Positions 16,310-56,903 of a stretch of DNA of 58,305 nt are shown here, one piece after another. The notes beneath the pieces were generated by a model that was not told the DNA's origin, did no database searches, and saw only the letters and a list, made by a program, of their open reading frames with translations. The translations under genes were made by a program, and so were the position numbers. The stretch spans positions 1 through 58,305 of the forward strand of contig JADCGR010000024.1 of assembly GCA_020248905.1 (NCBI GenBank), given 5' to 3'. Each line of letters starts with the position of its first letter. Position 1 is the stretch's first letter. Source of the stretch: Curvibacter sp. GTDB lineage: Bacteria; Pseudomonadota; Gammaproteobacteria; Burkholderiales; Burkholderiaceae_C.

Positions 16310-16346
16310 GCGGCGCAAGCGGGCGTGACAGGTACCCGGGCCCGGC

Positions 16347-39605: not shown

Positions 39606-40142
39606 CTAGTGCAGCTGGATGCCGCCGGCGCTGCCCTTACCCGCGCGCGCCGGCGGCTCGCACAGGCCGCAGACGTAATGGCGCGCATTCTCATAAGGCT
39701 CGGAGACGAAGTGACCGCCGCACTTGGAGCACTTCGTCATGGCCAGCATATTGTTGTCAACAAACTTGACCAGGCGCCAGGCGCGCGTGACCGACAGCAG
39801 CGGCTGCATGTCCAGCGTAGCCATCTGCTCGCTGTAGAGTCGGTAGGCCTTCATGACCGCGTCGATGTCGTCCAGCGGGCTGACCTTGCCAAGGTACTCG
39901 TAGATATTGAGGAAGAGCGAGGCATGGATATTGGGCTGCCATGTCAGGAACCAGTCGGTCGAGAAGGGCAGCTGGCCCTTGGAGGGCGACTTGCCTGCGA
40001 CCTCCTTGTACAGGCGCAGCAGACGCTCGTAGGAAAGATCAGTCTCACTCTCCAGCACCTGCAGGCGCGCGCCCAGCCTGATGAGTGCGACGGCGCGCTC
40101 GATCTGGCGCGATTCGTTGAGGACGCTCTTGGCGGTGGCCAT
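39606..40142 (-). CDS. flhC: Flagellar master regulator subunit C
   Basis: FlhC (178 aa) with FlhD forms the D4C2 activator of class II flagellar genes. The four zinc-ligand cysteines are present: Cys138, Cys141, Cys158 and Cys161 in CSKCGG and CGLC. The N-terminal helix region (SRQIERAVALIRLGARLQVL) is well conserved. It is 13 bp after flhD. An intrinsic terminator follows its stop. Confidence 0.96.
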   Translation of the reverse strand: MATAKSVLNESRQIERAVALIRLGARLQVLESETDLSYERLLRLYKEVAGKSPSKGQLPFSTDWFLTWQPNIHASLFLNIYEYLGKVSPLDDIDAVMKAYRLYSEQMATLDMQPLLSVTRAWRLVKFVDNNMLAMTKCSKCGGHFVSEPYENARHYVCGLCEPPARAGKGSAGGIQLH

Positions 40143-40155
40143 CTTCGAGTCCTTC

Positions 40156-40482
40156 TCAGAGTGCTTCGGCGTGACGGCCGGCCATCAGGATGCTGGCGTG
40201 CAGGCGGGTAGTGGTGTCGTTGTCCACCTTGCGCGTCGTGTGGTTGGTCAGCAGGCTCCAGACCACGTTGTCGTCCATGCGGAAGCGGCACAGCAGCATG
40301 CTGCTGGAGGCGATCTTGGACAGCTGGGCCGGCGAGAGCGCGGCCATCAGGTCGGCCGATTCCTCCGAGATTCCCAGGCGGAACTGCGCCTCGGCCTTGT
40401 CCTTGCGGATCAGGTTCTGTGCGAGCATCAGGTAGGTGAGGTTGGCCTCGCGGATATCGGCATTCAGTTGTTCGTCAGACAT
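40156..40482 (-). CDS. flhD: Flagellar master regulator subunit D
   Basis: FlhD (108 aa) is the partner of FlhC in the class I activator. It shows DIREANLTYLMLAQNLIRKD and the later LSKIASSSMLLCRFRMDDNV, both family signatures. The length is normal. The 200-bp upstream region contains a 17-bp palindrome (40602-40618) and no gene. The next gene upstream is the formyltransferase that ends the glycosylation island, on the same strand. Confidence 0.96.
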   Translation of the reverse strand: MSDEQLNADIREANLTYLMLAQNLIRKDKAEAQFRLGISEESADLMAALSPAQLSKIASSSMLLCRFRMDDNVVWSLLTNHTTRKVDNDTTTRLHASILMAGRHAEAL

Positions 40483-40682: not shown

Positions 40683-41591
40683 TCAGGGCGACGTTTCGGA
40701 GGCCAGGGGCGCAAGGCTCGCGCGCAACCATCCCTCGCGACAGCGCAGGAGCCAGATGTCAGCCGCCTCGATATGGATGTCAAGACCAGCCTTCGTGGAT
40801 GGTGTGCTGGCGACATCGCTTGCGATATCGCAAGCGACGATGGCGCGCCCCCGAACCGTAGGGTGCTGGAAGGGCGGGAAGATCAGGGAGCGTGCCAGGC
40901 GCGAACACGAGGCGGCATCCAATTCGGCGAAGGGCAGCTCGCGATCATTGAAGTCAACCGAGCGGCGGTCGTGGTAGGTCGCCTGCGCGTCGTCCTGCGG
41001 ATGTGACTGCACGCGATCCCGCATCAGGTCGGCCAGATGCCGCTGCACCAGCAGGGCGCCGCAGTGGTGCATCTCCTCGTAAAGCTCGCGCGCTGTGGTG
41101 TTGTCGCGCAGCGGGATCAGCGTCTGGTCCACGATCGCCCCGTCGTCGATGCCGGCGGTCAGAACATGCAGGCTCACGCCCGCGTGGGTATCGCCGCTGC
41201 GCAGGGCCCATATCCCGGGGTAACAGCCCCGATGCCGCGGCAAGGCGGAGAAATGCAGGTTGTAGGCGCGCGCACCGCCAAGTTCGGGCAGGCGGATGAT
41301 ACGGTCGTACTGCAGGCTCAGCAGCAGATCGCCATTGCGCAGCCCTGCGGCGGTGACCGTGTCCAGCACAGGGATGCCGAGGGTGCGGCAGCGGGCCGTG
41401 AACGAGGGCTCCCAGCTATCCTGCCCGTTGTCGCCCCTGACCGGCAGGCCCAGCACGGTCCAGTCCGTTGGTGATGACGCAAGGGCCTTTCGTACATGGC
41501 CCGCCACAGTGCAGGCGATGCGCCCCTTGCCCGCCAGGACCAGGCGTTGGTTGCGAGCCGGGGCGGCACGGGCTGGCAGGTCAGTCGGCAT
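40683..41591 (-). CDS. Formyltransferase-family protein, canonical active site (sugar N-formyltransferase candidate)
   Basis: This 302-aa protein has the 10-formyl-THF transferase core. The catalytic triad is visible: Asn111 and His113 in YNLHFSALPRHRG and Asp149 in TAGIDDGAIV. It lacks the tRNA-formyltransferase N- and C-terminal signature regions and lies in a glycosylation island. A sugar N-formyltransferase (as in Qui3NFo or Fuc3NFo synthesis) is the likely role. A C-terminal extension of unknown fold covers about residues 210-302. The start ATG at 41591 overlaps the upstream methyltransferase by 11 bp; a longer antisense-derived extension was discarded. Confidence 0.78.
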   Translation of the reverse strand: MPTDLPARAAPARNQRLVLAGKGRIACTVAGHVRKALASSPTDWTVLGLPVRGDNGQDSWEPSFTARCRTLGIPVLDTVTAAGLRNGDLLLSLQYDRIIRLPELGGARAYNLHFSALPRHRGCYPGIWALRSGDTHAGVSLHVLTAGIDDGAIVDQTLIPLRDNTTARELYEEMHHCGALLVQRHLADLMRDRVQSHPQDDAQATYHDRRSVDFNDRELPFAELDAASCSRLARSLIFPPFQHPTVRGRAIVACDIASDVASTPSTKAGLDIHIEAADIWLLRCREGWLRASLAPLASETSP

Positions 41592-42789
41592 AGAGCGTGC
41601 GGGCGTGGGCCAGAGAGAAGCTGCGCTGGACGTCTGGCGCGTAGGCCGCGCGGCGACGCAGACGCACGAACAGCTTGTCGATGTCGTGGGCTGGTACGAA
41701 GCTGCGGTGCATCGAGGCATCAACGAGTTCAAAGTAGCGTTCCATGATGTCGAACTTGCGGTCAAGATCGCCATCGTCGCCCGGGCCGCCGGTGCCTGGG
41801 CCGAAGACATTGTGGCTCTCGAAGAAGAGCCAGCCACCGGGTCGCAGCAGGGAGAAGAGCTTGGCGACGTAGGTTTCGAAGTCCATGGACATGCGCTGGT
41901 CGATGGTGCTGTGGTTGGCTAGCGAGAGCACCGCGTCATAGAGTGTGAGGGGCGACCAGGCCTCGATATCGGCCAGGATGAAGCGCACCTTGTGCGGCCC
42001 GAGATGGCGCGCCGCTGCGCGGCCGATGTCGACAAGGAAGGGATTGATCTCCACCGCGTCGACCTGCGCGACCCGGCGCGCCAGTGCCAGGGCGAGAAAG
42101 CCGTTGTTGGCCCCGAGGTCCAACACGCGGTCGCCCGGCTGGAGCAGCTCTTCTATGCCGTAGCCGCGCAGGCGTGTGTCCGTGGGCTTGATGCCGCACA
42201 GGCCCAGTTCCTCCCAGCCCTGGTAGAGGTAGCCACTGCAATAGCTGTGCGGCCAGTGGGCGCGTTGCAGGTGCAGTGTGGTGAAAACCTGCTCGTGCAG
42301 CGCCTTCAGCTCAGGCCTGACGAAGTGCGCGACCAGCAGGTCCAGGAAGGCGTAATGGCGGCTGAGGTGAAGAAAGTGCGGCCCAACGTCGGGCGCGGTC
42401 TCGCGCAGGTCCCGCAACAGGCGGGCGAGCAGGCTACCGGTGTCCGATAGGTCGGACTGCTCAGCGATCCAGCGCCTACGGGCGTCGACAGCCTCCTCGC
42501 CGCGCGCCCCCGGCAGGCAGGCAATGTTGGAAAGCGACTGGACGAGAGGAATGAGTTCCGGCACTTCGGCCTGGCTTTGCGGAAACAGCATGCCGAGCCA
42601 GTGCGATCGCGTCAGGATGTGCTCGACCAGCTGCTGCCATATGCCCTCGTGGCGGGCCGGGTCCTCGCCCGCATCCCAGCGGGCCAGGGCCTGACTCAGG
42701 GCGAGCAGGCCCGGATCGCTGGCCCTGGGGTGGCGTTCGACGATGGCTCGCAGCGTGGACGGCAGGGAGGCAGGCGTATCAGGTCTCAT
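41581..42789 (-). CDS. SAM-dependent methyltransferase
   Basis: This 402-aa protein has a class I methyltransferase core near residues 215-330: VLDLGANNGFLALALA (SAM loop) and DAVEINPFLVDIGRA. The N-terminal 200 residues are helical and of unknown role. The layout, with a preceding stretch GLCGIKPTDTRLRGYGIEEL, recalls methyltransferases that accompany phosphoramidate genes in Campylobacter (Cj1419/Cj1420), though I cannot align them here. O-methylation of the phosphoramidate or of a sugar are both possible. It lies 20 bp after the cytidylyltransferase and overlaps the formyltransferase. Confidence 0.75.
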   Translation of the reverse strand: MRPDTPASLPSTLRAIVERHPRASDPGLLALSQALARWDAGEDPARHEGIWQQLVEHILTRSHWLGMLFPQSQAEVPELIPLVQSLSNIACLPGARGEEAVDARRRWIAEQSDLSDTGSLLARLLRDLRETAPDVGPHFLHLSRHYAFLDLLVAHFVRPELKALHEQVFTTLHLQRAHWPHSYCSGYLYQGWEELGLCGIKPTDTRLRGYGIEELLQPGDRVLDLGANNGFLALALARRVAQVDAVEINPFLVDIGRAAARHLGPHKVRFILADIEAWSPLTLYDAVLSLANHSTIDQRMSMDFETYVAKLFSLLRPGGWLFFESHNVFGPGTGGPGDDGDLDRKFDIMERYFELVDASMHRSFVPAHDIDKLFVRLRRRAAYAPDVQRSFSLAHARTLYAD

Positions 42790-42809: not shown

Positions 42810-43574
42810 TCAGTGCCCGGCGGTGTCCCAGCGCCAGTCGTGCGACCAGCCCGGTTGACGCAGCGCCTGCTCGTACAGCGCAAGATCGGAAGCGGAGTCA
42901 ACCTCGCACCAGCGGCCGGCGACACCGATTGCCGCGATCGGTGTGCCTCGTGCGAGCAGCGCCGACAGCAGAGAGGTCATGTCCAGGGCGCGGCGCTCGG
43001 CGCCGAGCGTGTGCAGGTAGGCCTCGACCTCGGCCCATCCGGCGGGGGTGAACCGCAGCAGGCCCATGTACTGGCCGCGCGCGTCGGCCCAGACCTGGGC
43101 ACGTCCACCGATGCGTCGCAGGATTCCGCCTTCCTCCAGAAAAGATTCTGCGTCAGCCAGCGGGTCGGCCGGATTACGCAGGCGCCAGAGTGCCTCCCAG
43201 CGGGTGTCGTAGGTGATCGCCAGATCGGCGTCGCAGTCGACCAGGGCGCGTGGTATCCCTGGGTGGTAGACGATGTCTCCATAGGCCACCAGCGTGGTCG
43301 CGGCGGCCAGTCGCGCGCGCGCGTGCCACAGCGTGCCGACCATATTGGTGCGTTCCCAGTCGGGGTAGCGTGTGAGCGTGATGCCGGAAACGTCAATGTG
43401 GTCTGCGGCGTAGCCAGCCATGACATGGATACCGTCCAGCCCTGCCGCACGCATCGCATCGCATTGCCATTGCAGCAGGGGCCGACCAGCCAGCGTAACC
43501 ATGCACTTGGGTTGGCGCGCGGTGAGTTCTCCCAGGCGGCTGCCGCGCCCGGCGGCCAGAATCAGCGCCTTCAT
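42810..43574 (-). CDS. Nucleotidyltransferase, Cj1416-like CTP:phosphoglutamine cytidylyltransferase candidate
   Basis: This 254-aa protein is a Rossmann-type NTP transferase: KALILAAGRGSRLGELTARQ then PKCMVTLAGRPLLQWQ at the N-terminus, YGDIVYHPG as the metal-binding Asp motif, and WCEVDSASDLALYE at the C-terminus. In C. jejuni the homologue Cj1416 condenses L-glutamine phosphate with CTP. Assignment to that reaction here comes from the neighbouring Cj1417- and Cj1418-like genes, in the same 1418-1417-1416 order. The start overlaps the amidohydrolase stop by 4 bp (ATGA). A sugar nucleotidyltransferase is the alternative. Confidence 0.75.
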   Translation of the reverse strand: MKALILAAGRGSRLGELTARQPKCMVTLAGRPLLQWQCDAMRAAGLDGIHVMAGYAADHIDVSGITLTRYPDWERTNMVGTLWHARARLAAATTLVAYGDIVYHPGIPRALVDCDADLAITYDTRWEALWRLRNPADPLADAESFLEEGGILRRIGGRAQVWADARGQYMGLLRFTPAGWAEVEAYLHTLGAERRALDMTSLLSALLARGTPIAAIGVAGRWCEVDSASDLALYEQALRQPGWSHDWRWDTAGH

Positions 43575-44200
43575 GGGCGGGGCTCCTCGCCAAGCCAGAA
43601 CCAGCGCAGGAAGCGCCGGTCCTGCGGGTCCACCTGCGGCTCGCGTTCCGGGTGCCACATCAGGCCGGCACAACGGCGCTGCTTGTCACCTGCGGCCTCG
43701 ACGTCGCCCGCCGGTCCCCAGGCATAGGCCCGCAGGCCTGCTGGCAGCGGGCCGCCCAGCACCTGCCCGTGAAAGGAGTTGACCTCGCGCGCCGAGGCTA
43801 CGGCGCCCGCCCATGGTGGCGCCCAGTGCACGAGATGGCGTGCCGCCACATGGCCGGGCGCTGGAGCGAGCACACCGCCGTGCCAATACCATAGCTGTTG
43901 TAGTCCGCGGCACACGCCCAGCAGTCGCAGCGAGCCCTCGCGACACAGCCCCCAGAGCGCGTCCTCGGTCGCATCGCGCCGCGGGTTCTCGCCGCGGTCC
44001 TCGCCCCCGGAAAGAATGACGCCATCAAGTTCCCAGCGGCCGACCCAGTCACCAACAGCATCGCCCAGGTTGGGCACCGGCAGCCAGTCCGCCTCGGGCA
44101 GCGCCTGCGCCATCAGTCGGTGCCAGTCGTGCGCGAGCGCATCGCGTGTCTCGTGATAGGCCGTGGCGTTGCCGCCGCGCATGGTGATGCCCAGTCTCAT
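43571..44200 (-). CDS. Class I glutamine amidotransferase-like hydrolase, Cj1417-like
   Basis: This 209-aa protein belongs to the GATase/peptidase C26 group. The nucleophile is Cys97 in LLGVCRGLQQL, with His183 and Glu185 in MWHPERE completing the triad, and NSFHGQ between. Cj1417 of C. jejuni, of the same fold, hydrolyses gamma-glutamyl-CDP-amidate to CDP-amidate and glutamate. Placement directly between the glutamine-kinase-like and cytidylyltransferase-like genes supports this role. The gap to the kinase gene is only 7 bp. A generic gamma-glutamyl hydrolase (PuuD-like) is the alternative. Confidence 0.76.
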   Translation of the reverse strand: MRLGITMRGGNATAYHETRDALAHDWHRLMAQALPEADWLPVPNLGDAVGDWVGRWELDGVILSGGEDRGENPRRDATEDALWGLCREGSLRLLGVCRGLQQLWYWHGGVLAPAPGHVAARHLVHWAPPWAGAVASAREVNSFHGQVLGGPLPAGLRAYAWGPAGDVEAAGDKQRRCAGLMWHPEREPQVDPQDRRFLRWFWLGEEPRP

Positions 44201-44207
44201 CGTGACG

Positions 44208-46610
44208 CTACTCCTGCGCCGGACGGATCCAGCGCTCGTCGCAGGATAGCGTCACGGCGCGCGCCGCAACCAGTCGCCTGAACAGGGGCTCGCCGCAGCC
44301 AATGGCCGCCGGCAGCGCCAGCTCCGCGCAGCGCACCGCCATGTGGGAGTTGGCACCGCCGAACTGCGTGACCAGGGCCGCCGGGCCGCGCGAGAAGATC
44401 CAGTCGAAACCCGGATCTGCGCTTTCAATGCACACGGCCAGGCCCGCCAGTGGCGTGGAGGCTGGGGTGTTGCCGTTGATGCAAATCACCGGTGCCGTGA
44501 TGGCCCCACGCCCAAAAAAGTTGGGCTCGCTGCGGTTGAGCGTAGCCACCTGGATGTCGCGCTCGTCGCGGATGATGTGGCTGAGCCGGAAGGCATGCGC
44601 GGCCTCGAAACGCTGGCGCTCACGATTGGCCTCGTCGAGGAAGTATCGGTCGGGGTCGTCCATGACAGGCTGCACGCCCGCATCGCGCAGCAGCGGCCAG
44701 GGCAGGAACGAGAGGTCCTCGCGGTGCAGTCCTGCCCGCTCACCCCAGGCCGCCAGCGCCTGCAGGAAGTTGGATAGCTGGCGCGAATAGACAAACTTCG
44801 CATGCTCGCGTCCTTGTACGGCGCGGCGAGCGAAGTCCAGCAGCGCGCCGGCATCCACGCCGTCCAGTCGTGCCTCGCGCAACAGTGTGTCCAGCGCGCG
44901 ACTCTCGTGAGGCGCCAGCGCGAAATGCGCAACGGGCGCGGGTACGGCCGGTACAACCTCGTCGTCCTGGAAAAGGTCGGCACGCTGGTCATAGCGCTCG
45001 GAGGTGATTTCGTAAGTGCCGGGCCGCAGGTGGCCGTAGACCTGCAGGAAGTCCGCGCGCGGGCGTAGGCCCTGGCAGACCTCGCGGTATTGCTGCAGCA
45101 GGTCACCCGTGACCGTCGGCACCGAGGTGCGCCACAGCGCCAGGCGCTCGGACGTGAGGGCGCCGCGCTCGACGGCGGAGCGCAGCAGCGCCTCGGCCAC
45201 GAACGCATGGCGGGCGATCACGGCGAAGGGCACGGCCCCGAGGCGCCGGCATAGATCGAGCATGCCCGTGAGGGCGTCCAGCGTCGCGGCGTCGTGTGCG
45301 GGCTGGCGCGACAGACGGTCCAGCGCATCGATGGCTTGCAGGGACCGGGCGTAGGGCCTGTCGGCCGCAGGTCGCAGGCACGCCTGCGTCAGTGCGCCCA
45401 GCGCATCGCGCCATATGCGCAGCGCGTCCGGCTGCAGCAGCCCAGGGTAGCGCTGCTGCCAGTGCTGTTCGAAGGCGAAATCCAGGCAGGTCGGGACGAT
45501 CTCGAACTCCACCTTGTCGTGATACTCGGGATGCGCATCCAGCCGGTCGATCCACGCATCAACTACGGCCGCCCCCAGCGCGTCGGGCACCGCAGCCGGG
45601 ACGAAAGAGTTGAAGCTGTTGCGTACATCGATGTAGGGATGGTGGTTGAGCAGTACCATCAGTTCCTCGCCCGCGACATCGCGGTAGCCCATGCTGGCGC
45701 GCGCCTGCCGCCACGAAGCGGCAGTGATGAGATCGCGGTACAGGGAGGCGGCCAGCGGCCGCGGCGTGATGCCGATGATTTCGGCCGGGTTCCAGTCTGG
45801 CATCATGGCCAGCAAGGTGCGGTGGCCAAGTACACCGGAGCGCGGCAGCGAGCGTTCCCGTACGAAGCGCTCGGCCTGCTCGAGCTGGCGCGCCACGCGC
45901 CGCTCGGTGACCGGGTGCCAGTTGCGGGCCGCAGCGATGCGCCGCACCTGCAGCAGATGGATCACGCCTTGCGCGTCCAGCGCAAACTCGATATCCAGCG
46001 TCTGACAGCGGGTGAGCGCTTCCAGTTCGCGCGCGAGCGCCACGATGGCCCGGATGCGCGCGGACTTAAGCAGCGAGTTGGGTGCCGCGCGGTAGACCAG
46101 CACCGTCTTGTGCAGGCCCCGGCCAGCGGTCACCTGGTCAGTGCGTCCGGACTCGTCGTCATAGCTGATCACGTAATACGGCGCGCCATTGGCCATGTCA
46201 AAGGTCATCACCACGCCGCAGGCGCTGACCGGGGCCACCATGGTCTGGAACAGGATCTCGTCGCCCGGCAGCCCCGGCATGGCGTTGGCCACGTCCTGTG
46301 CGGCCTGCCGCACCTCGGCTTCGTGGCTGGCGTTGACCTGCAGGCGCGAGAGGTAGGCGCCGGCGGCCGATCTGCGCTCGCTGTCCTCGAACTGCGCGCT
46401 GCTGCGCACCGCGATGGCCTGCCCCGACCAGCGACGCGAGACCTCGGCCAGCACAGCGGCTGGATCGGCGCGCCATTGCTGCACGGTGACGGACCAGCAC
46501 GGCGGCAGCGAGCCGTGGCGCAGCCGGTCTCGCAGCGCCAGCAGCGTGCCCGCCTTGGTTCCCCATGCAAAAGCTGCGGGAGCGAGGTGTTCAGTCGGCG
46601 ACATCTTCAT
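44208..46610 (-). CDS. PEP-synthase-like L-glutamine kinase candidate (Cj1418-like)
   Basis: This 800-aa protein has an N-terminal ATP-grasp part related to PEP synthase/PPDK, with VRSSAQFEDS (residues 68-77) and, later, VTAGRGLHKTVLVYR. A large helical middle section follows. The C-terminal swivelling phosphohistidine domain has QFGGANSHMAVRCAE, with the phosphorylated-type His756. There is no PEP/pyruvate TIM barrel, so it cannot be PEP synthase or PPDK. Cj1418 of C. jejuni has this same layout and phosphorylates the amide nitrogen of glutamine, releasing AMP and phosphate. The order with the next two genes matches C. jejuni. The start could also be the ATG at 46604. Confidence 0.76.
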   Translation of the reverse strand: MKMSPTEHLAPAAFAWGTKAGTLLALRDRLRHGSLPPCWSVTVQQWRADPAAVLAEVSRRWSGQAIAVRSSAQFEDSERRSAAGAYLSRLQVNASHEAEVRQAAQDVANAMPGLPGDEILFQTMVAPVSACGVVMTFDMANGAPYYVISYDDESGRTDQVTAGRGLHKTVLVYRAAPNSLLKSARIRAIVALARELEALTRCQTLDIEFALDAQGVIHLLQVRRIAAARNWHPVTERRVARQLEQAERFVRERSLPRSGVLGHRTLLAMMPDWNPAEIIGITPRPLAASLYRDLITAASWRQARASMGYRDVAGEELMVLLNHHPYIDVRNSFNSFVPAAVPDALGAAVVDAWIDRLDAHPEYHDKVEFEIVPTCLDFAFEQHWQQRYPGLLQPDALRIWRDALGALTQACLRPAADRPYARSLQAIDALDRLSRQPAHDAATLDALTGMLDLCRRLGAVPFAVIARHAFVAEALLRSAVERGALTSERLALWRTSVPTVTGDLLQQYREVCQGLRPRADFLQVYGHLRPGTYEITSERYDQRADLFQDDEVVPAVPAPVAHFALAPHESRALDTLLREARLDGVDAGALLDFARRAVQGREHAKFVYSRQLSNFLQALAAWGERAGLHREDLSFLPWPLLRDAGVQPVMDDPDRYFLDEANRERQRFEAAHAFRLSHIIRDERDIQVATLNRSEPNFFGRGAITAPVICINGNTPASTPLAGLAVCIESADPGFDWIFSRGPAALVTQFGGANSHMAVRCAELALPAAIGCGEPLFRRLVAARAVTLSCDERWIRPAQE

Positions 46611-47316
46611 GCAATGACAAGCGTGCGATGTGCTTGAGCACGGGGTGGATCACATAGTAGCTGCGTCCCGTGCCCGGGCTCTGGGCGCGGCCGCGCCACA
46701 GTGCGCGCCGTCGCTGGTAGCGGCGCAAGACCCGCACGAGGAGATCGGCTCGGATCGCGTTGTCATAGAGCAGGTCCAGGTCGACATCAGCGGCGGGCCT
46801 CGGGTAGCGCCGGCGCATCAGGATGTGGCCCTCGTCGATGCGCTGGTCGAGCAGGATGGCTGACACAGCCGGCTGCTGACCGGCCAGCAGCGCGTAATAG
46901 AGCGTGGTGCTGCCCCGGAAGTCGGGCAGCCAGCCGCTGTGCAGGTGCAGGAAAGGCACGCGCAGGTCCAGCAGCGCATCGCCCACTATCTGCCCGCCGT
47001 AGCCGCAGTAGATGACAAGTCTCGGGCAAAGCCGCTGCAGCGTCGCACGCAGCTCGCCATCGTTGACGTCCGCACTGTGCAGTGCCTCATGGTCCCAGCC
47101 GCCGCGGGCGGCGGTCACCTCCAGCGCTTCGCTGAGGTCCGGGCAGGGGAGCTTGCCGAGGTCGGCGCTCGCAGGCTCGCCCGTCGGGGTGCCGCCTGGT
47201 GGTGCCGCCAGCAACAGGGTGTGCGCCGGTGCGAGTGCAGCGCGCTGCATGGCCTGCGCGTAGGCCTGGGAGCGCGCCGTGCGGGCCGCCAGAAACAGCA
47301 CGCCGTCCATCACCAT
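46591..47316 (-). CDS. Formyltransferase-family protein with altered catalytic Asn
   Basis: This 241-aa protein has the formyltransferase fold core PFLHLHSGWLPDFRGSTTLY. The canonical Asn of N-x-H is His124; His126 and Asp161 (in DQRIDEGHIL) remain. The GSTTLYY element looks like a subgroup feature rather than random decay. A formyl transfer to an amino sugar or a phosphoramidate-related amine is possible, but the Asn change makes activity uncertain. Three nearby starts exist (ATG 47316, GTG 47313, ATG 47310), all overlapping the upstream stop. It overlaps the glutamine-kinase-like gene by 20 bp. Confidence 0.7.
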   Translation of the reverse strand: MVMDGVLFLAARTARSQAYAQAMQRAALAPAHTLLLAAPPGGTPTGEPASADLGKLPCPDLSEALEVTAARGGWDHEALHSADVNDGELRATLQRLCPRLVIYCGYGGQIVGDALLDLRVPFLHLHSGWLPDFRGSTTLYYALLAGQQPAVSAILLDQRIDEGHILMRRRYPRPAADVDLDLLYDNAIRADLLVRVLRRYQRRRALWRGRAQSPGTGRSYYVIHPVLKHIARLSLHEDVAD

Positions 47317-47885
47317 GACACCCCCAGGCGCTGCGCCAGGCGCTGTACATGTCCCGACTCGCGCTGAGCCAGCCGCTGCAGCCGTGCTGCCTGCTCGGCG
47401 CTGAGCCAGGCTCTCTGGGTGGTGAGCAGGTCCATGATCTTGAGCAGGGCATTGAGCGCGTCCAGCGCGCCCTCCTCGGTGCATGACGATTCGAACAGTT
47501 CGGCGGCCAGCAGGTAGCGATCCGGATCACGGCAGTCGCTGCGATCCAGCGGCACGAAGCCGACCGCGTAGGCGCCGTAGATGCGCTGGCCGACCTCGAA
47601 GTGCTGGATCAGCCGCCGCAGGCGCTGTCGCTCGTTCGCGCCGGCCCCGTTGCGCCAGGCCTGAGCGAGTGCATCCAGCGCATCATCCAGCCCAGCCAAG
47701 GAGGGCCCAAGAGGTGGTGCCGCAAGCGGATCGGCTGGCGCAGACTTGCGCAGTGGCTCGCGCGCTGCGGTCCACGCTGCAAGAAAGGGGCGGGCGGCAT
47801 AAGGCGCGTAGTTGTAGCGCCGCCGCTCACTCAGAGCGTCGCCAAGAGCGTAGGGGTACAGGTCCAAGGCCGACTCCGCCTTCAC
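47310..47885 (-). CDS. Unrecognised 191-aa protein within the phosphoramidate module
   Basis: I do not recognise this protein. It begins MKAESALDLYPYALGDALSE, is rich in Ala, Leu and Arg, has no signal peptide or membrane helix, and appears mostly helical. Tyr-rich segments RRRYNYAPYAARP and GQRIYGAYAVGFVP are its most distinctive parts. It overlaps the CDP-amidate-kinase-like gene by 4 bp upstream and the second formyltransferase by up to 7 bp downstream. Tight coupling to these genes argues for a real, linked function. It has no counterpart that I recall in C. jejuni. Confidence 0.7.
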   Translation of the reverse strand: MKAESALDLYPYALGDALSERRRYNYAPYAARPFLAAWTAAREPLRKSAPADPLAAPPLGPSLAGLDDALDALAQAWRNGAGANERQRLRRLIQHFEVGQRIYGAYAVGFVPLDRSDCRDPDRYLLAAELFESSCTEEGALDALNALLKIMDLLTTQRAWLSAEQAARLQRLAQRESGHVQRLAQRLGVSW

Positions 47886-48391
47886 AGGATGGCGACGACC
47901 TGGCGGGCCCAGGCCGCCCAGTCGGGTTGCGGGCCGTCGTTGTGCAGCACGAGGTCGGCTCCGCTCGGTGGCGGGAAGGGGATGTCCACCCCGACCACGT
48001 TTTGGCGCCGTCCAGCGGCCGCATCGGCGTAGAGTCGCTTGCCGTCGCGCGCGCGCAGGGTGTCCAGCGGCGCGTCGATGAAGACTTCGCGGTAGGCCGA
48101 GAAGCGGGTGCGGTTGGCCGCGCGCATTTCTGGGAACAGGGAGAGAACGCAGCAGACCGCATGCATGCCCTGATCGTCAAGCCAGGCGCACAGGCGGGTG
48201 ATCGTCTCGGCGTTGCGGCGTCGACCTTCAAGCGAGTAGTCCTGCTCCTGGGTGTCGGTGCCCAGCAAACGCCGCACCTCGTCGCCATCGACCAGCACGA
48301 CGTTGGCCTCGCGCTCACGCCACTGCTGAACCAGCACCCGGCCCAGAGAGGACTTGCCCGCACCCGACAGACCGATGATCCATACCACCAT
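47882..48391 (-). CDS. APS-kinase-like kinase, Cj1415-like CDP-amidate kinase candidate
   Basis: This 169-aa protein is of the CysC/APS-kinase fold. The P-loop is GLSGAGKSS (residues 7-15). VLVDGDEVRRLLG follows, and RRRNAETITRLCAWL lies near the substrate site. APS kinases phosphorylate the ribose 3'-OH of adenylyl sulfate. Cj1415 of C. jejuni uses the same fold to phosphorylate the 3'-OH of cytidine in CDP-amidate. No sulfate-activation genes (cysD, cysN, cysH) are present and the context is phosphoramidate-like, so the Cj1415 role is preferred. It is short by comparison with typical CysC (about 200 aa). Confidence 0.74.
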   Translation of the reverse strand: MVVWIIGLSGAGKSSLGRVLVQQWREREANVVLVDGDEVRRLLGTDTQEQDYSLEGRRRNAETITRLCAWLDDQGMHAVCCVLSLFPEMRAANRTRFSAYREVFIDAPLDTLRARDGKRLYADAAAGRRQNVVGVDIPFPPPSGADLVLHNDGPQPDWAAWARQVVAIL

Positions 48392-48411: not shown

Positions 48412-49461
48412 TCAGCTGGCGGCTGACGCCAGTTCAAGTATGGCATCGGCTGCGGCCCGCGCGGACCGTCCCTGCAGCGGTGCGAAGTAGAAGTCACGCA
48501 GCTGCCTGTGCGCTGCAGAGGCCACATCCCAGACGCGCGGGTCTTCCAGCGCGGCAAGCAGGTCCTGCGGCCGCTGCACACTGGGCAGGTACCGGCGCAG
48601 GGTGATGTCAGGAGAATCCTGCCCGGTCAGGGCGTCCTCGGCGGCGCCCGCCACGTCCAGCAGCAGGAAAGGCAGGCCGACGTAGATGGCACCGAAGGGC
48701 GAGCCACCGTAATCGCAGAGCATCAGGTCGGCGACGCGAAAAAGGTTGAGGTTGTCGTAGCTGTCTGTGATGAGCGTGGTGTAGGGGTGCGCGCGCAGCC
48801 GGGCCACCCGCTCGGGCTCTTCAGTGACCATCAGGGGATGCAGCTTGACGAATACGTTGAACTTGCGCGTCAAGTCCGAGATGACTGCATCGTAGACGCC
48901 GACCGAGGACAGCTCCTTCCAGGTCGGCAGCCACACGATGCTGGGAATGTCCGGGTCGCCTCCGAGCGCACGCACCAGGGCGCGACGGTCGATGGTTTCG
49001 TTGAAGTAGCGGTCGAACCTCGGGTAGCCGATCTGGACCTTGCGGGCAGCAAAGGCGGCATAGGCCTGGACGTGGTAAGGCCCGAAGCACAGGATGAGGT
49101 CGTACAGCGCGTTCCACGGGCGCAGGTTCCAGCCGCTTTTGCCCAAGGCATAGTTAAAGCGCGCGTTGCGCACGCCCAGGCGCCGAATCAGGGGCACGGG
49201 ACCCGACGGATCCAGCGGGTGGTTGGAGACCAGCACAGGGTAGCGCCGGCCGCTGGCCAGCGCATCTTCCATCGACACGCAGGCCAGGCCCGCAGCCTGC
49301 GCCAGGGCCGAAGTCTGCGACCGTTGTTCTGGATCGCCCGCCGGGATGACGATGACGTCGTCGCGGTCCAGCTGCTGCCAGACGTCGCGGTAATGGTTCA
49401 CCATCTCGGCCAGGTGGACCAGAAAGGCGATGCGGCGGGTATCAGGGGGAGGAGCGGCCAT
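48412..49461 (-). CDS. CDP-glycerol glycerophosphotransferase-family (TagF/TagB-like) transferase
   Basis: This 349-aa protein resembles the C-terminal catalytic domain of CDP-glycerol:polyol glycerophosphotransferases: IVWLPTWKELSSVGVY, FVKLHPLM, ITDSYDNLNLF and LMLCDYGGSPFGAIYVGLPF. The donor in known enzymes is CDP-linked and the acceptor a hydroxyl. It lies 20 bp upstream of the APS-kinase-like gene. In this setting it is the best candidate to transfer a CDP-activated phosphoramidate to the glycan, but transfer of an ordinary polyol phosphate is equally possible. The ATG at 49461 is used; 30 extra in-frame residues upstream look unrelated. Confidence 0.75.
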   Translation of the reverse strand: MAAPPPDTRRIAFLVHLAEMVNHYRDVWQQLDRDDVIVIPAGDPEQRSQTSALAQAAGLACVSMEDALASGRRYPVLVSNHPLDPSGPVPLIRRLGVRNARFNYALGKSGWNLRPWNALYDLILCFGPYHVQAYAAFAARKVQIGYPRFDRYFNETIDRRALVRALGGDPDIPSIVWLPTWKELSSVGVYDAVISDLTRKFNVFVKLHPLMVTEEPERVARLRAHPYTTLITDSYDNLNLFRVADLMLCDYGGSPFGAIYVGLPFLLLDVAGAAEDALTGQDSPDITLRRYLPSVQRPQDLLAALEDPRVWDVASAAHRQLRDFYFAPLQGRSARAAADAILELASAAS

Positions 49462-49620
49462 GGGCAGGGTGGTTTCGGGCGGGTCATGCGCTGTGCCCGC
49501 CGCAACGCCGTGGCGGCACGCGGCGACACCTTTGCGGGCCATTATCGGCACGGCTCGGCCGACTTAAACGCCAAAGTGGCTGCGCTCAGCCCCGCATTTC
49601 TGAGCTTGTCCGTGGTAGCT

Positions 49621-52275
49621 TCAGTGTGCGTGTGCCGCCAGGCTCGCGGCCAGGGCATCGGCCACCGGTTCCAGTGGCAAGGCGTAGTCCGACTGATGGG
49701 CTTCGGCATGCGAGTCGCCGGCGGTGCGGCCATGGATCACGGTCATCGCCAGGCCCAGCGAGGTCGCGAGGTTCGAGAAGAAGTGGTGGCCGGTGGCGGC
49801 GTTGGTGAACAGCAGCACGCGCGCGCCCCGGGGCGCGAACAGGAGGTTGGAAAAGGCCGCGCCGGTCGGACCGGCGATGTGGCTGGCCTCGGCGAAGGTA
49901 CGCATCTGCGTGACGAGGTCCATCGTCCCGGTATCCACCACTTCGAAGCCGGCTTGCACGAACAGGGACTCGATCTCGTCGTGGTTTAGCAGGTGCCGGT
50001 AGCCCCCCCGGCGGCGCAGGAACAGTCGTCGCTGGCCCTGGGCTGGCGGCAGGCCGGCCATGAGCCGCCCGCGCAGGAAATCCAGGGTCTGCGGGCAGAA
50101 GACGTAGTCTCCAGCCTCAAACGCGGCACCTGGGTGCAGCGTGTAGGGAATGCGGTGGCCGCTGAAGCCCGCGACCGCCTCTTTCAGCAGCACCGGTGCG
50201 CCCTGGGGCTGACGCAGGATGCGGCGGTGGGCGCCGGCGACCCGGCGCAGGGCTTCCTCCAGATTGGCGTGCAGGTTCTCGTCGATCAGCAGCGGCCAGT
50301 CGGCCAGGGCCGGGTCGTCGAGCACGGACTCCAGCGCGGCGAGGCCTTCGAACAGCCAGTGGAAGTAATTGAAGCTTGCTTTGCTGCGCACGACGATGGC
50401 GCGATCCAGGCACACCGTGGGGGGCAAAGGGTGAAACAGGAACGCATGATCGAGCTCGGCGGTAAGCATCTGCGCCAGCAGCCGGTTGACGCGCGAAACC
50501 GAGGCAATGCGGGTGCGGTCGTGGTGGAAGCTGGCCTCATGGGCAATCTGGTCGCTGGCCGGGTGCCAGAACGCGGTCTCGCCATTCCAGACCTGGACAT
50601 CGCGCAGCCGCACGTGCCCGGCCGCTGGCGCGTGCATTGGCACGGGCGTGTCGGGCTGCGCGCTGTCCAGTCCCAGCTCGGGCACGGGTGCGATGGTCCA
50701 GCGTTGTGCCTCGCGCAGGATATGGACCGCACCCCCCGAGTGGTTCGCGAGCTCGGCCAGTGTGAGGGGCGCGCGAAAGGCACCAGAGAGCCCTATCCGC
50801 GTGATCGCGGCCGGGCTGTCGTCGTACACCGAGCAGGGCGCGTCATGGGTCCAGTCCCAGCCCGCAGGCGTCGGGCGGCAATGGGCATCAATGGTAGCCC
50901 CGCCCAGCAGCCCTGAGGGATCGACGATCACTTGCAGCGCAGCCAGACGTGCCAGGGTGAGCGCGAAGCCCGCGACATGGTCGAGCGGGTTTACGAAGAC
51001 CAGCGCGTCAAGCGCCAGCTCGCCCACGATCCGGGTCAGCATCGGCGCCGACACCCCCGGGACAAGGAACTCGCGTACCCCCAGCCCTTCGAGTCGCGCC
51101 TCACCGAGCGATACGCCGCCGTGGATGAGCACGCAGTCGCACGCCGCGCCGGTGCGGGCGCGCAGATGCGCGACCAGCTTCTCAAACAGTGGGGGCGTAT
51201 TGGCCGGGAGATGGATGCCCAGTCGACGCAACGAGCTCAGAGGGCCTGCGCCGCGCACGACGCGCGCCGTGCCTAGCCCGGGAAACAGGGTCACGAGGCG
51301 CGCCCGCACCTGTGCCAGCGTTGCTGGGCGCAGTGCTGCGGTCCCCTGCAGATCCAGATGAGCGAGGAACTCGGGCGCGTAGCGCTCGGCTTCGAGCGAG
51401 GTGCGGCAGGGCAGCGCGAGGGCCTGCGCAAGTTCCACGGGGTCCGGTGCGCAGGCGTCCGGCTTCGGCGTCAAGGCCAGCAGCAGGGCACACAGAGGCA
51501 GGAAATCGTCCGTCTTGCGCAGGCAGGCGGCGGCCTCCGCCTCGCGGCCCTGGCGACGCAGCAGGCGCGCGGTGGTCAGCGCATGCAGGGGATGGGCCTC
51601 GTCTTGTTTCGGGCCGTGCAGCAGTATGGACAGCGCCTCGTCGCGACGCCCGAGCGCGTCCAGGGCGAGGCCGCGCAGGTAGCGGCTGTGCGGGTCGTCC
51701 GGCACCAGGCGAGCCCCGAGCTCGAGCGCCTGCAGTGCCTGGGCTGGCTGGCCGAGCGCGAGCAGCGCCCGCCCCAGGGTCTGGAAGATCAAGGGGCTGT
51801 GGCGTTGGGCCTGCAGGTGCAGGCGGGCCTGCCTCACGGTGCCGCTGGCGTCTGCGGACAGAGCCAGGCCGGCGGCAAGCGCCAGGCCGGCAAGCGCGGC
51901 GGTCTCTCCGTAGCGGGCCAGCGCCTGTTCGAGCAGACGCGCCACCTGGCTCATCTCCCCGCATCGGGCCAGGAACTCGATGCTGGCCGCGACACGGTCG
52001 TGATCTTCCAGCGCCTGCCCGTGCTCCACGACCGCCAGCAGCGCACGCCGGTCCAGGTAGGTCAGCCGCCATGGCGGGATGGCCGCGAGGATGTCAACGC
52101 AGGCGCCGAAGTCTCCCTCGAACAGATTCACATAGGCCTGCAGCCGCGTACGCAGCCCGGGCGATAGCCGGGGGCTGGCCGAGGCCAGTGCGGCGTGGGT
52201 GCGGGGAATGTCGCGCTCGAAGAGCGCAGTCCAGACGGGAACAGCGGCTGCGTCGTCGGTCGGCATGGACTTCAT
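49621..52275 (-). CDS. TPR-containing GT61-family (DUF563) glycosyltransferase
   Basis: This 884-aa protein joins an N-terminal TPR-like helical half (about 30-290, QTLGRALLALGQPAQALQAL, then DALGRRDEALS) to a C-terminal DUF563/GT61 domain (about 600-870). The GT61 part is marked by FNYFHWLFEGLAALE, RRRGGYRHLLNHDEIESLF and GPTGAAFSNLLFAPRGARVL. A middle domain (about 300-480) may bind or present a carrier. TPR-glycosyltransferase fusions often modify flagellin or surface proteins. It lies 18 bp after the large glycosyltransferase and 159 bp before the TagF-like gene. The acceptor is unknown. Confidence 0.82.
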   Translation of the reverse strand: MKSMPTDDAAAVPVWTALFERDIPRTHAALASASPRLSPGLRTRLQAYVNLFEGDFGACVDILAAIPPWRLTYLDRRALLAVVEHGQALEDHDRVAASIEFLARCGEMSQVARLLEQALARYGETAALAGLALAAGLALSADASGTVRQARLHLQAQRHSPLIFQTLGRALLALGQPAQALQALELGARLVPDDPHSRYLRGLALDALGRRDEALSILLHGPKQDEAHPLHALTTARLLRRQGREAEAAACLRKTDDFLPLCALLLALTPKPDACAPDPVELAQALALPCRTSLEAERYAPEFLAHLDLQGTAALRPATLAQVRARLVTLFPGLGTARVVRGAGPLSSLRRLGIHLPANTPPLFEKLVAHLRARTGAACDCVLIHGGVSLGEARLEGLGVREFLVPGVSAPMLTRIVGELALDALVFVNPLDHVAGFALTLARLAALQVIVDPSGLLGGATIDAHCRPTPAGWDWTHDAPCSVYDDSPAAITRIGLSGAFRAPLTLAELANHSGGAVHILREAQRWTIAPVPELGLDSAQPDTPVPMHAPAAGHVRLRDVQVWNGETAFWHPASDQIAHEASFHHDRTRIASVSRVNRLLAQMLTAELDHAFLFHPLPPTVCLDRAIVVRSKASFNYFHWLFEGLAALESVLDDPALADWPLLIDENLHANLEEALRRVAGAHRRILRQPQGAPVLLKEAVAGFSGHRIPYTLHPGAAFEAGDYVFCPQTLDFLRGRLMAGLPPAQGQRRLFLRRRGGYRHLLNHDEIESLFVQAGFEVVDTGTMDLVTQMRTFAEASHIAGPTGAAFSNLLFAPRGARVLLFTNAATGHHFFSNLATSLGLAMTVIHGRTAGDSHAEAHQSDYALPLEPVADALAASLAAHAH

Positions 52276-52293: not shown

Positions 52294-55200
52294 TCAGTCA
52301 CGCGTCCAGGCAGCAAGCCAGGCCCGCAGGTGCGCGCTCTGCAAGGTCCAGTCGCTCGCCACCTGCTGCTGCAGCGCGAGCCCGTCCCTGCGCAAGCCAT
52401 CGGGGTCGGCGAGCGCGTCGCGCAGGGCCCGGCGCCAGTCTTCGCGGCGGTGGGCCACGCGCCTTACCGGCAGCGAGCCCTGGTAGGGAAGCACGTCGGA
52501 GCAAAGCACCGGCAGGCCGCACCAGCCGTACTCCAGCAGGCGCAGGTTGGACTTGCACTCGTTGAAGGCATTGGATTCCAGCGGTGCGATCGCAAAGTCC
52601 CAGCCTGCCGCCAGCGCCATGAGCCGCGCTGGGTAATCCGGTGTGGCGACCGGTTCATGGAACTCGCGGATGTAGGGCCTCAGCGCTTCGGGGCACATGC
52701 CGAAGAAGACCCAATCCACCTGCTCGGCCGTTTCTCGGATCACGTCGGCGATCATCAGAAGATCGCCCTGATGGCCTGCGCCGCCGGCCCAGCCCACACG
52801 CGGCCGTGCGCTGCGCTCGCGCTGGCGCACCGGTGGCGTGGTACCCCACCAGCGCAGCGGCAGACGATTGGGCACGACGCGGATGTCAGTGTGCAGACTG
52901 GACAGCGCCTGCGCCAGCGGCTCGGTGGAGACGACGACGTGATCACACAGGGCGATGCCGCGCGCCATGCGCTCGCGGATGTCGGGCGGCACCCCTCGGG
53001 CGTGTACGCTGCTCGGCGGGATGTGCGCGAGGTCGTCGTCGATCTCGTAGATCCGGTGCACGCCGTGCAGTGCCTGCAATGACTCCAGCACGGCCAGCCC
53101 CTCATCGTTGACCGGACGCTGCAGTACGAGGGTATCCGCGCCGCTGCGCAGCACGAGGTGGGGGCCGAAGAGCTCCGGCGATGCCCCGCCCCGGCACAGA
53201 CCGGCATCCAGCATCGCCTGCAGGGGCTGCAGGATGCGGTAGTGCCCGCACCCGTGGCTGTCGCCAGCAAACGCGATCACGCGCGGGGCGCTTCGGTCGC
53301 CCTCAAGATCGTGCCGCAGCAAGGGATTGGTTTCGACCTCATAGCCGCGCTCGGCCAAGCTCAGGTTCGGGTTGTAGGCGGGATCGGCGGCGATGAGCCG
53401 TGGCCAGCGCTGGTACATGGCACCCTGTTCGCGGGTGAATCGCGCCCGCTTTTGCGCAAAGCTCGCGTTCTCAACTGCGGCACGTTGGCTTGCGCTGCCC
53501 TCGTGCAGCAGCGTGGCCAGCGGCGTCCAGACGATCCTGTGGCCCGCCTGTCCCACGCGCAGGCAGAAATCGACATCGTTGTAGGACACACCGAAGGTTT
53601 CCTCGTCCAGACCACCCACCGACTGGTAAAGCGTGCGCGCCACCAGCATGCAGGCGGCCGTGACCGCCGAAAAGTTCTGCGTGAGCTGGGCGCGCAGCAT
53701 ATACCCCGGTTCTTGCGCGCCCAAGCCCAGGGCCGGGTGGTCAGCCGGCCCGCGCAGGCCCAGCACTACTCCGGCGTGCTGCACGCGGCCGTTTGGAAAC
53801 AGCAGGCGCGCGCCGACGATGCCCACCCCGGGGCGTAGCGCGTGACGGACCATCTGCGTCAGCCAGCCCGGCTGCAGGACGGCGGTGTCGTTGTTGAGCA
53901 GGAGCACGAACTCGCCGCGCGCTTGCGCCACGGCGACATTGTTCATGCGAGAGAAGTTGAACGGCCCGGGCATGGGCAGCACTCGGATGCGCTCATTGCC
54001 CATTTCCTCCAGCCCGGCAAGAAAGGCGCGCGCCTCCTCGGTCTGGCTGTTGTTGTCAACGACGATGAGTTCCCAGTCCGGGTAGTCGGTCTTGCCAAGC
54101 ACTGACTCGATGCACCGACCCAGCAGCGCCAGCTGGTCGCGCGTGGGGACGATGATCGAGACGCGTGGCGTGCGCGGCAGCGGCGGAACCACGTGGAAGG
54201 TGCCCGGTGCCGGCCCTTCAAGCACTGTCGAGCCGGGCTCCGTGCGCGAGAGGTGATGGCTGAGCTCGGCCGCCAATGCCTGCCAGAGTGCGCTGCTGTC
54301 GGCCAGCATGGCTGCAACGGATGCGCTCAGGTGCAGCAGGGGCATCGGGATATGTAGCACACACTCTTTGCCCTGTGCCAGCGCTGCCAGCATGAGCCGG
54401 TAGGCGATGGCGAGCGCTTCCTGCGGCGGATCCTTTGCCAGGCAAGTCCAGGCCCAGTCTTCTCGCACCAGCAGTGCCCGCCCCATATAGGGAAGGCTGA
54501 GCAGGTAGTCCGGCAGCAGGCCTGGCTTGAAGATCGGGTGGCGGAGGCTGCCATCGTCCAGCCGCTCATCGTGATCGCTGTACACCAGCAGAAGCTGCGA
54601 TGCATCTGCGTGGCCGAGGACGGCCTGCTCCAGGCTGGCGAGCGCATGGGGCTCCAGGGTGTCGCCCGCGCACAGCAGCAGCGCCCAGGTGTGGCTGGAC
54701 GCGACGCCATGCGTGCTGTCGCCGCGCAACAAGCCGAACTCCACTCGGTCGGCCCGGCGGGTCTGGGCCGCCAGGCTGGCTTGCGTGACGGCCAACGCGG
54801 CCGCAGGTGCATCTCCGAGAATGCGCACGGTCAGGTGCAGGGCCACGGCATCCATCCGCTGCCACCGGGCCGCGTGCGTTGGAGCAGGCTGGCTCAGGGT
54901 CGAGGCGATCTCGGTGTAGATGGCCTGCGGAATGCCGCCTTCCGGGCCGGGACCCAGTGCCATCCAGGCCTGGGCAATGTGCTGCGCCAGGTCGGCGCGC
55001 CCAGCCTGCCGGGCGTCAGCCAGCCTATGCAAGTAGAGCTTGCGCAGGTGCTGCAGCCAGCGCTCGCGGGGCCACTGCTGTGCTTTCTCCGGCGCACTGG
55101 TGCCGCCCAGCCGGTAGCGCAGCATGGGCTGGTCGATGTAGCGGTAGCCACCGTGCAGCGCCGCACGAAAGCCCAGCACCAGGTCCTCATAGGTGTCCGA

Positions 55201-55781: not shown

Positions 55782-56903
55782 TCAGGGCATGGCGGAGGCA
55801 GTCGTTTGCAGGATGTCGTGCAGGGCGGCAATGACCCTTTCGACCTGTTCATCGCGCAGGTGCGGGCCCATGGGCAGACTCAGCACGGACCGCGACAGGG
55901 CGTCGGCCAGCGGAAAAGCCTCGGCAGCACAACCTAGCGAGGAGAAGGCGCCTTGCCGGTACGGGGGGATGGGGTAATGGATCAGGGTTTGCACGCCGTG
56001 TTCGGCCAGGGCGGCCTGCAAGGCGTCGCGCTGACTGGTCCGTACGATGTAGAGATGGTGCGAGGACCGGGTGCCCGGCAGCGACTGAGGCAACTGCAGC
56101 TCCAGGTCCTGCAGGCCACTGGCGTAGCGCAGCGCGATCTGTTCGCGCCGCGCGTTCCAGGCGCTCAGGTGTTGCAGCTTGACGCGCAGCACCGCTGCCT
56201 GCAGCGGGTCCAGCCGGCTGTTGACGCCCTGATGTTCATGCACGTACTTGACGCTGGATCCGTAATTACGCAGTTCTCGCAGCCGTTCAGCCAGGGCCGT
56301 CTTGCGCGTCGTGATACCGCCCGCATCACCGAGCGCGCCCAGGTTCTTGCCCGGATAGAAGCTCCAGCACACCAGATCGCCGTGGGCGCCGATGCGCTCG
56401 CCGTGGTACTGCGCCCCATGCGCCTGCGCGGCATCCTCGATCAGGGCCAGCCCGTGCTCGCGGGCGATTCGCAGCAGCGGGTCAAGGTCGGCGGGCGCGC
56501 CGTAGAGATGGACCGGCAGGATCGCACGCGTGCGCGGCGTCAACGCCTGGGCCACGCGTGCCGGGTCGAGGTTGCAACTGACCGGATCGGGCTCAACGGG
56601 GACTGGCGTCGCCCCTACGGCGGCTACTGCCAGCCAGGTGGCGATGAAGGTGTGGGATGGCACGATCACCTCGTCGTCAGGCCCGATATCGAGAGCGCGT
56701 AGTGACAGGGTCAGGGCATCAAGGCCGTTGCCCACGCCGATGCAGTGGGTGGCTCCGCAGTAGGCGGCCCACTCGGCTTCGAAGGCTTCGACCTCCGGCC
56801 CCAGGATGTAGTGGCCGCTGCGCAGCACCCGGGCGATGGCGGCATCGATCTCGGCGCCAATTTCGCGGTAGGCCGCTCCGAGATCGAGAAAGGGGACGGT
56901 CAT
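55782..56903 (-). CDS. DegT/DnrJ/EryC1 sugar aminotransferase (FdtB/QdtB-like)
   Basis: This 373-aa PLP enzyme has the sugar-aminotransferase pattern: FLDLGAAYREIGAEIDAAIA, GNGLDALTLSLRALDIGPDD, EDAAQAHGA and the PLP lysine in SFYPGKNLGALGDAG (Lys186). FdtB and QdtB aminate the C3 keto group of dTDP-3-keto-6-deoxyhexose. The partner isomerase (FdtA-like) is immediately upstream and overlaps it by 4 bp, so the pair is co-translated. The product would be dTDP-Fuc3N or dTDP-Qui3N; which of the two cannot be read from sequence. The dTDP-glucose synthase and dehydratase (rmlA, rmlB) are not in this window. Confidence 0.9.
   Translation of the reverse strand: MTVPFLDLGAAYREIGAEIDAAIARVLRSGHYILGPEVEAFEAEWAAYCGATHCIGVGNGLDALTLSLRALDIGPDDEVIVPSHTFIATWLAVAAVGATPVPVEPDPVSCNLDPARVAQALTPRTRAILPVHLYGAPADLDPLLRIAREHGLALIEDAAQAHGAQYHGERIGAHGDLVCWSFYPGKNLGALGDAGGITTRKTALAERLRELRNYGSSVKYVHEHQGVNSRLDPLQAAVLRVKLQHLSAWNARREQIALRYASGLQDLELQLPQSLPGTRSSHHLYIVRTSQRDALQAALAEHGVQTLIHYPIPPYRQGAFSSLGCAAEAFPLADALSRSVLSLPMGPHLRDEQVERVIAALHDILQTTASAMP

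Follow-up and report, generated by a model that had tools for sequence, protein, structure and literature searches.

A candidate phosphoramidate activation cassette between flagellin and flhDC in Curvibacter sp.

In Campylobacter jejuni, the enzymes Cj1415 to Cj1418 turn glutamine, ATP and CTP into CDP-phosphoramidate 3'-phosphate, and Cj1419 and Cj1420 are given no assigned function (PMC11800397). Outside Campylobacter, Xanthomonas campestris and Shewanella sp. MR-4 are described as bearing groups with a phosphorus-nitrogen (P-N) bond, without the methyl, on their lipopolysaccharide (LPS) (PMC3907429, PMC3210612, PMC3655273). A 2022 review calls glutamine kinase specific to C. jejuni (PMC9561416), and a 2019 review places O-methyl phosphoramidate (MeOPN) so far only in Campylobacter (PMC6429109). 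In our partial survey of the literature, no phosphoramidate genes were found described in a flagellin island outside Campylobacter, and a paper on flagellar glycosylation islands of Clostridium botulinum uses the word phosphoramidate once, in its reference list only. Here we analyze a stretch of 58,305 nucleotides from Curvibacter sp., a GC-rich bacterium (GenBank assembly GCA_020248905.1, contig JADCGR010000024.1, positions 1 to 58,305 of the forward strand; hereafter, the window), in which a seven-gene cassette, with candidates for the enzyme set of the C. jejuni MeOPN pathway (PMC11800397), lies between flagellin and flhDC and not in a capsule locus. It is probable, in our judgment, that the set makes 3'-phospho-CDP-amidate and that the phosphoramidate goes onto the flagellin glycan. 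Such a product would resemble those of X. campestris and Shewanella sp. MR-4 in placing a P-N group on a surface glycan outside Campylobacter, and would differ from them in its carrier, which in those species is LPS.

The cassette runs in the order GPT-APSK-U191-FMT1-GlnK-GGH-PNT, with GlnK, GGH and PNT contiguous (gaps of 7 and -4 bases) and APSK upstream of GlnK on the same strand, two genes lying in between. These genes, together with those at the two borders of the island, are as follows.

57400..58305, minus strand: flagellin, C-terminal part (PF00700), an open frame that runs off the window end
48412..49551, minus strand: GPT, CDP-glycerol glycerophosphotransferase-like protein (PF04464), candidate phosphoramidate transferase; start codon uncertain
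47882..48391, minus strand: APSK, APS-kinase-fold protein, candidate CDP-amidate kinase (PRK05541, tree, diagnostic residues)
47310..47885, minus strand: U191, predicted all-helical cassette partner (predicted structure; no Pfam or NCBIfam family)
46591..47310, minus strand: FMT1, formyltransferase-fold protein in which a His occupies the catalytic Asn position (H122-x-H124 ... D159)
44208..46610, minus strand: GlnK, glutamine-kinase-like ATP-grasp/phosphohistidine protein of 800 aa, His756 (NF004508/PRK05849; PPDK_N and PEP-utilizers domains)
43571..44200, minus strand: GGH, gamma-glutamyl-CDP-amidate hydrolase-like protein of the class I amidotransferase fold, Cys97/His183/Glu185 (best model NF045546)
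42810..43574, minus strand: PNT, nucleotidyltransferase, candidate phosphoglutamine cytidylyltransferase (NTP_transf_3, LicC-like, linked to GGH)
39606..40482, minus strand: flhD and flhC, the other island border (PF05247, PF05280)

The initial annotation, made from the sequence alone, had described four of these open reading frames as a complete phosphoramidate activation module. All four are indeed open on the minus strand at the coordinates above, three of them are contiguous and the kinase lies upstream beyond two intervening genes, as it had placed them; each of the four steps has a candidate, although the cassette partners GPT, U191 and FMT1 had been left out. The four enzyme folds and the Cj1418-Cj1417-Cj1416 order of C. 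jejuni are the same as those found here. Unlike the C. jejuni capsule locus, however, the window is flagellar, has two genes between the kinase and GlnK, and carries FMT1, U191 and GPT as partners. In the route that we infer, GlnK would phosphorylate the amide nitrogen of glutamine, PNT would couple the GlnK product with CTP, GGH would remove glutamate to yield CDP-amidate, and APSK would phosphorylate the 3'-OH of CDP-amidate; GPT, judging by its position and family, might then use this activated CDP donor to attach the phosphoramidate to one of the sugars in the flagellin glycan. In C. jejuni, the transferases of the MeOPN capsule pathway are Cj1421 and Cj1422.

GlnK scores 832 bits against NF004508/PRK05849 (cut-off 501, passed), a model which we take to cover Cj1418, versus 33 bits against the phosphoenolpyruvate (PEP) synthase model. 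Its Pfam domains are PPDK_N (64-107) and the PEP-utilizers mobile domain (728-791) only, and no Pfam match to a PEP-barrel was obtained, in agreement with what had been claimed for this protein. Its profile matches in the PDB are entries named PEP synthase, some of which are presumably rifampin phosphotransferases, and enzyme I. His756 is present as predicted; in an alignment of 110 rows, apparently with PEP-synthase loci among them, it is kept in 89, and the remaining 21 have a gap there. For GGH, the best NCBIfam model is that of gamma-glutamyl-CDP-amidate hydrolase (NF045546), at 71 bits against an equivalog cut-off of 250, compared with 20 bits for the gamma-glutamyl-GABA hydrolase model; because NF045546 is the best model by far, GGH may work like that hydrolase, though it is not filed as an equivalog. 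The predicted Cys97/His183/Glu185 triad was also found, and is conserved in 77 of 80 aligned rows, with gaps in the remaining three. All 60 scanned hydrolase relatives of 180-270 aa match NF045546, as all 52 scanned kinase relatives of 140-230 aa match PRK05541, in both cases counted as matches and not as scores above the respective cut-off, and with broader models matching as well. PNT yields generic nucleotidyltransferase matches (NTP_transf_3), and none of the Pfam and NCBIfam models scanned provided a specific profile for it; its second PDB match is LicC (1jyk), which it resembles at the N-terminus. Its adjacency to GGH (49 of 58 loci, defined below) and this LicC-like N-terminus make PNT a candidate cytidylyltransferase. 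The expectation that all four proteins would match the Cj1415-Cj1418 group best was thus borne out by profiles for GlnK, the hydrolase and the kinase, and not for the nucleotidyltransferase, which has generic models only.

Two GlnK relatives, in Vibrio (L025:11392-14379) and Pseudohalocynthiibacter (L027:9272-12370), carry an N-terminal extension. A fusion to a kinase was our first guess and was dropped; the extensions have no Pfam match. When used as a seed, the Vibrio extension recruits nucleotidyltransferases of the PNT family, which suggests that it is a PNT-family domain and that the fusion joins two steps of the pathway.

True CysC was among the paralogues from which the kinase had to be told apart, and sequence comparison does separate them. 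APSK passes PRK05541, which we take to be the model of Cj1415 (140.7 bits, cut-off 127), and misses the apsK model TIGR00455 (93 bits, cut-off 138.7). When 64 module-linked kinases were placed in one tree with 16 CysC of the same order, four rows having been dropped beforehand (two short module rows and two mis-picked CysC fragments), the two groups separated at 99/95 support, with two long-branched module rows (L051 and L079) sitting beside CysC under a midpoint root. Near-fixed residues also differ, among them Pro 85 and Phe 52 in CysC and Asn 93 in the module group.

GlnK relatives were found at no fewer than 569 places on genome contigs (pattern scan, tblastn E<=1e-3), as well as in 14 plasmid records and one unverified phage record; with the window GlnK as the sole query, viral contigs gave no match. 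The best 80 of the 569 genome-contig loci, which together with seven plasmid loci and the phage locus made up our locus study, span Pseudomonadota, Bacteroidota, Thermodesulfobacteriota, Verrucomicrobiota, Myxococcota, Acidobacteriota, Omnitrophota and others. Gene content was counted in the window and 57 fetched loci (one duplicate excluded), 58 in all, each having 4 kb or more to either side of GlnK, a sample biased in that it consists mostly of the genome loci most like the window GlnK, and with neighbour HMMs trained on the same loci that were counted. In these, GGH is present in 54, PNT in 55, APSK in 48, FMT1 in 27, U191 in 26 and GPT in 17. Considering neighbours within 9 kb of GlnK at E<=1e-15, all four enzymes occur together in 45 of 58 loci and GlnK-GGH-PNT are contiguous in 43; FMT1 is the direct neighbour of U191 in each of the 25 loci with U191 in this range, APSK and U191 adjoin in 23 of these 25, GPT and APSK in 14 of 16, and FMT1 and GlnK in 13. 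Such linkage argues that the gene set is more than a chance assembly. The complete order of the window cassette is in fact found again in Pseudomonas (L037, L074), Alteromonas (L038), Aeromonas (L048), a Piscirickettsiaceae metagenome-assembled genome (L044) and Sedimenticola (L066).

Other arrangements were also seen. On an Agrobacterium vitis plasmid (L029:9914-15003), genes for a LysE-family exporter and a CDP-alcohol phosphatidyltransferase come after GlnK-GGH-PNT, and no APS kinase was recognised there; to judge from these neighbours, CDP-amidate may be used in this organism for a lipid or for a small molecule that is exported. A Cupriavidus taiwanensis plasmid (L028:9947-12310) holds a GlnK homologue near nif genes, with a thiamine pyrophosphate (TPP) enzyme and an aminotransferase, and neither hydrolase nor cytidylyltransferase was recognised nearby. 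The phage record (MT837632.1), an unverified 'Bacteriophage sp.' from human faeces, contains a GlnK relative of 29% identity, with no other cassette gene recognised in its 9.5 kb. Finally, the GlnK genes of a deltaproteobacterial plasmid are flanked by two proteins of 413 aa (L023:10601-11842 and 15797-17038) that are related to each other, match no Pfam family and have relatives in Desulfovibrio-type loci (also L052 and L062).

With regard to the flagellar setting, the genes downstream of flagellin, as far as the formyltransferase FMT2, are closely packed on its strand (spacing -20 to 69 bases), flhD and flhC coming next, and the order downstream of flagellin is FdtA-type isomerase, DegT aminotransferase, family 2 glycosyltransferase, tetratricopeptide repeat (TPR) and family 61 glycosyltransferase protein, GPT, APSK, U191, FMT1, GlnK, GGH, PNT, methyltransferase MT, and FMT2. 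This minus-strand cluster (40.7-57.3 kb) would represent a flagellin glycosylation island, and it is like other such islands in having sugar and glycosyltransferase genes beside flagellin and a content that differs in same-genus relatives. The contig probably ends inside the flagellin gene, since no flagellin N-terminal domain was found on it (C17) beyond the window; the only strong flagellin N-terminal domain of the genome is on another contig (C44:24895-25302), and could be the missing end of this gene or belong to a second flagellin. No GlnK above cut-off was found in 25 same-genus and 34 other relatives. Sixteen of the 25 same-genus relatives have an flhC match, and a strong flagellin match lies 9.5-14.6 kb from it in eight and within 1 kb in two (G020, G022), with strong flagellin matches on other contigs or missing in four more. 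In four of those eight relatives the place between flagellin and flhC was examined, and none of GlnK, GGH, APSK, U191 and FMT1 was labelled there; ten chosen genes from three of them, run against Pfam, and one against NCBIfam, include glucose-1-phosphate cytidylyltransferase (471 bits), nucleotide-sugar dehydratases/epimerases, methyltransferases and TPR-GT41 proteins. Because different sugar genes occupy this place in part of the genus, it behaves like a slot for flagellin glycosylation genes.

The placement recurs elsewhere. The genomes of 49 of the 80 loci were searched, and 42, which are not independent of each other and many of which contig breaks make uninformative for this distance, had a flagellin-domain match. 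Six of the 42 have GlnK no more than 10 kb from a flagellin-domain gene (expected 0.58), and seven no more than 30 kb (expected 1.39); for the expected values genome sizes were rounded, windows were left untrimmed at the ends of contigs and coordinates were transferred manually. The seven loci (L032, L033, L034, L038, L044, L047 and L048) are all labelled with FMT1; in L033, from Methylotenera oryzisoli, the distance between GlnK and a flagellin gene is 6.7 kb. The flagellar setting described by the initial annotation therefore stands, with flagellin and flhDC at the borders, and its interpretation as a whole is supported; its further suggestion, that P-N chemistry would be extended to a new surface structure, is favored by this setting, but needs to be tempered by the wide occurrence of relatives and by the P-N groups already known on Xanthomonas and Shewanella LPS.

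A number of findings weigh against our proposal that the cassette serves the flagellin glycan. The relation to Cj1415-Cj1418 is drawn from profile models, GGH is under its equivalog cut-off, PNT is not separated from other LicC-like enzymes, and APSK was not found in 10 of the 58 loci. Furthermore, 35 of the 42 genomes have no GlnK within 30 kb of flagellin, the two being on different contigs in many and far apart in some, which indicates that the cassette is not flagellin-specific and occurs in other settings too; and in two same-genus relatives (G003, G008) flhC and flagellin share a contig but are more than 400 kb apart, so that fliC and flhDC are not always neighbours in this genus. The latter makes our proposal slightly weaker and slightly strengthens an alternative, according to which activated phosphoramidate is made but put on LPS or capsule, the flagellin adjacency being the coincidence of a mobile sugar cassette. 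Cassettes distant from flagellin in several genomes (in Pseudomonas sp. KNUC1026, GlnK is about 310 kb from flagellin on the same contig), plasmid loci that hold the cassette among other sugar genes, and the LPS-borne P-N groups known outside Campylobacter (PMC3907429) would all fit such a scenario. We nonetheless consider it unlikely, though by no means negligible, because the cassette sits between flagellin and flhDC, a place used for other sugar genes in several same-genus relatives, and because of the enrichment near flagellin in other genomes.

Alternatively, the three-gene core might make CDP-amidate with APSK serving otherwise, for instance in supplying 3'-phosphoadenosine 5'-phosphosulfate (PAPS) for sulfation or assimilation. 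The only other APS_kinase-family match in this genome is, in fact, a single weak, partial one of 22 bits, and its CysH lacks the CC motif, a mark of iron-sulfur adenosine 5'-phosphosulfate (APS) reductases; if this CysH were a PAPS reductase, an APS kinase would still be needed, which also counts against our proposal. That need is argued against by the same-genus relatives, of which 22 of 25 have CysH/CysD-family matches and one only (G022) full-length APS kinases, suggesting that most of the genus assimilates sulfate without an APS kinase and that a housekeeping one is not to be expected. APSK, moreover, adjoins U191 in nearly all loci with U191 and has residues unlike those of CysC, and a PAPS-supplying role appears quite improbable to us. 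Even less credible is that ordinary paralogues (CysC, gamma-glutamyl hydrolase, sugar nucleotidyltransferase, PEP-synthase-like protein) were gathered by chance. The Pfam names are generic, and the annotation of relatives reads gamma-glutamyl-GABA hydrolase family and adenylyl-sulfate kinase, but the GlnK scores, the exclusion of CysC by tree and cut-offs, and the linkage of the four enzymes speak against it, and a CysC/PuuD/PpsA paralogue reading was judged unlikely from profiles, tree and linkage.

The remaining cassette genes deserve separate mention. U191 has no Pfam or NCBIfam family; its predicted structure is all-helical (pLDDT 86.9), and a Foldseek search with this model gave no match at E<=0.001. 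The catalytic triad of 10-formyl-tetrahydrofolate transformylases is Asn-x-His ... Asp, and FMT1 differs from methionyl-tRNA formyltransferase, ArnA and sugar N-formyltransferases in having His where their triad has Asn. This substitution is seen in 36 of 37 rows, the other being a gap, and also by alignment to solved enzymes, and it makes ordinary formyl transfer doubtful. As judged from their linkage, the best explanation for FMT1 and U191 is that they form a fixed pair belonging to this branch of the pathway. GPT passes the gathering cut-off of PF04464 (37.6 versus 22.1 bits); 16 of the 17 loci with GPT have U191, and none has MT2, a class I S-adenosylmethionine (SAM) methyltransferase (seed L023:17081-17833) present in 22 loci, one of them a duplicate (L067). 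In an alternative form of the cassette, MT2 accompanies the APS-kinase-like gene, and it is a candidate for O-methylation. We also considered whether FMT1/U191 and MT2 exclude each other, as in the 58 loci one has both, 25 have FMT1/U191 only, 16 MT2 only and 16 neither (Fisher P 1e-4); we do not take this as evidence of replacement, because the pattern goes back to very few events on the APSK tree (supported branches give two independent pairs; sign test p 1). One could speculate, in what we regard as an unlikely though worthwhile idea, that several phyla share a second P-N branch without O-methylation, processed by the new pair FMT1 and U191, with its product on flagellin here and in several genomes. 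FMT1 could in that case N-acylate the P-NH2 group or hand it on, with U191 as a helical partner. By calculation, a sugar would gain 78.98 Da from a phosphoramidate, 93.00 from its O-methyl form and 106.98 from its N-formyl form, against 79.97 from a phosphate.

If our proposal is correct, P-N bonds would be a fairly common surface decoration with flagella as one carrier, and the cassette would name testable candidates for the transfer step and for capping of the group. In contrast to the reviews mentioned above, relatives of the kinase occur in at least 569 places and, among the best 80, the linked set is found in several phyla and, in some lineages, by flagellin; this rare chemistry may thus decorate flagella.

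The rest of the island consists of the following genes.

56900..57313, minus strand: FdtA/QdtA-type sugar ketoisomerase (PF05523, 194.9 bits)
55782..56903, minus strand: DegT aminotransferase, QdtB/FdtB-like by position (PF01041)
52294..55752, minus strand: large family 2 glycosyltransferase (PF00535, two stretches)
49621..52275, minus strand: TPR and glycosyltransferase family 61 protein (PF04577)
41581..42789, minus strand: MT, class I SAM methyltransferase of 402 aa, directly after PNT (Pfam)
40683..41591, minus strand: FMT2, formyltransferase, candidate sugar N-formyltransferase (Formyl_trans_N; usual NxH motif, NLHFSALP)

The acceptor of the phosphoramidate is perhaps a 3-amino-3,6-dideoxyhexose, whose synthesis would fall to the FdtA/DegT pair and whose N-formyl group would come from FMT2, which matches the PRK06988/ArnA models with scores under their cut-offs. 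MT was found in eight loci in all.

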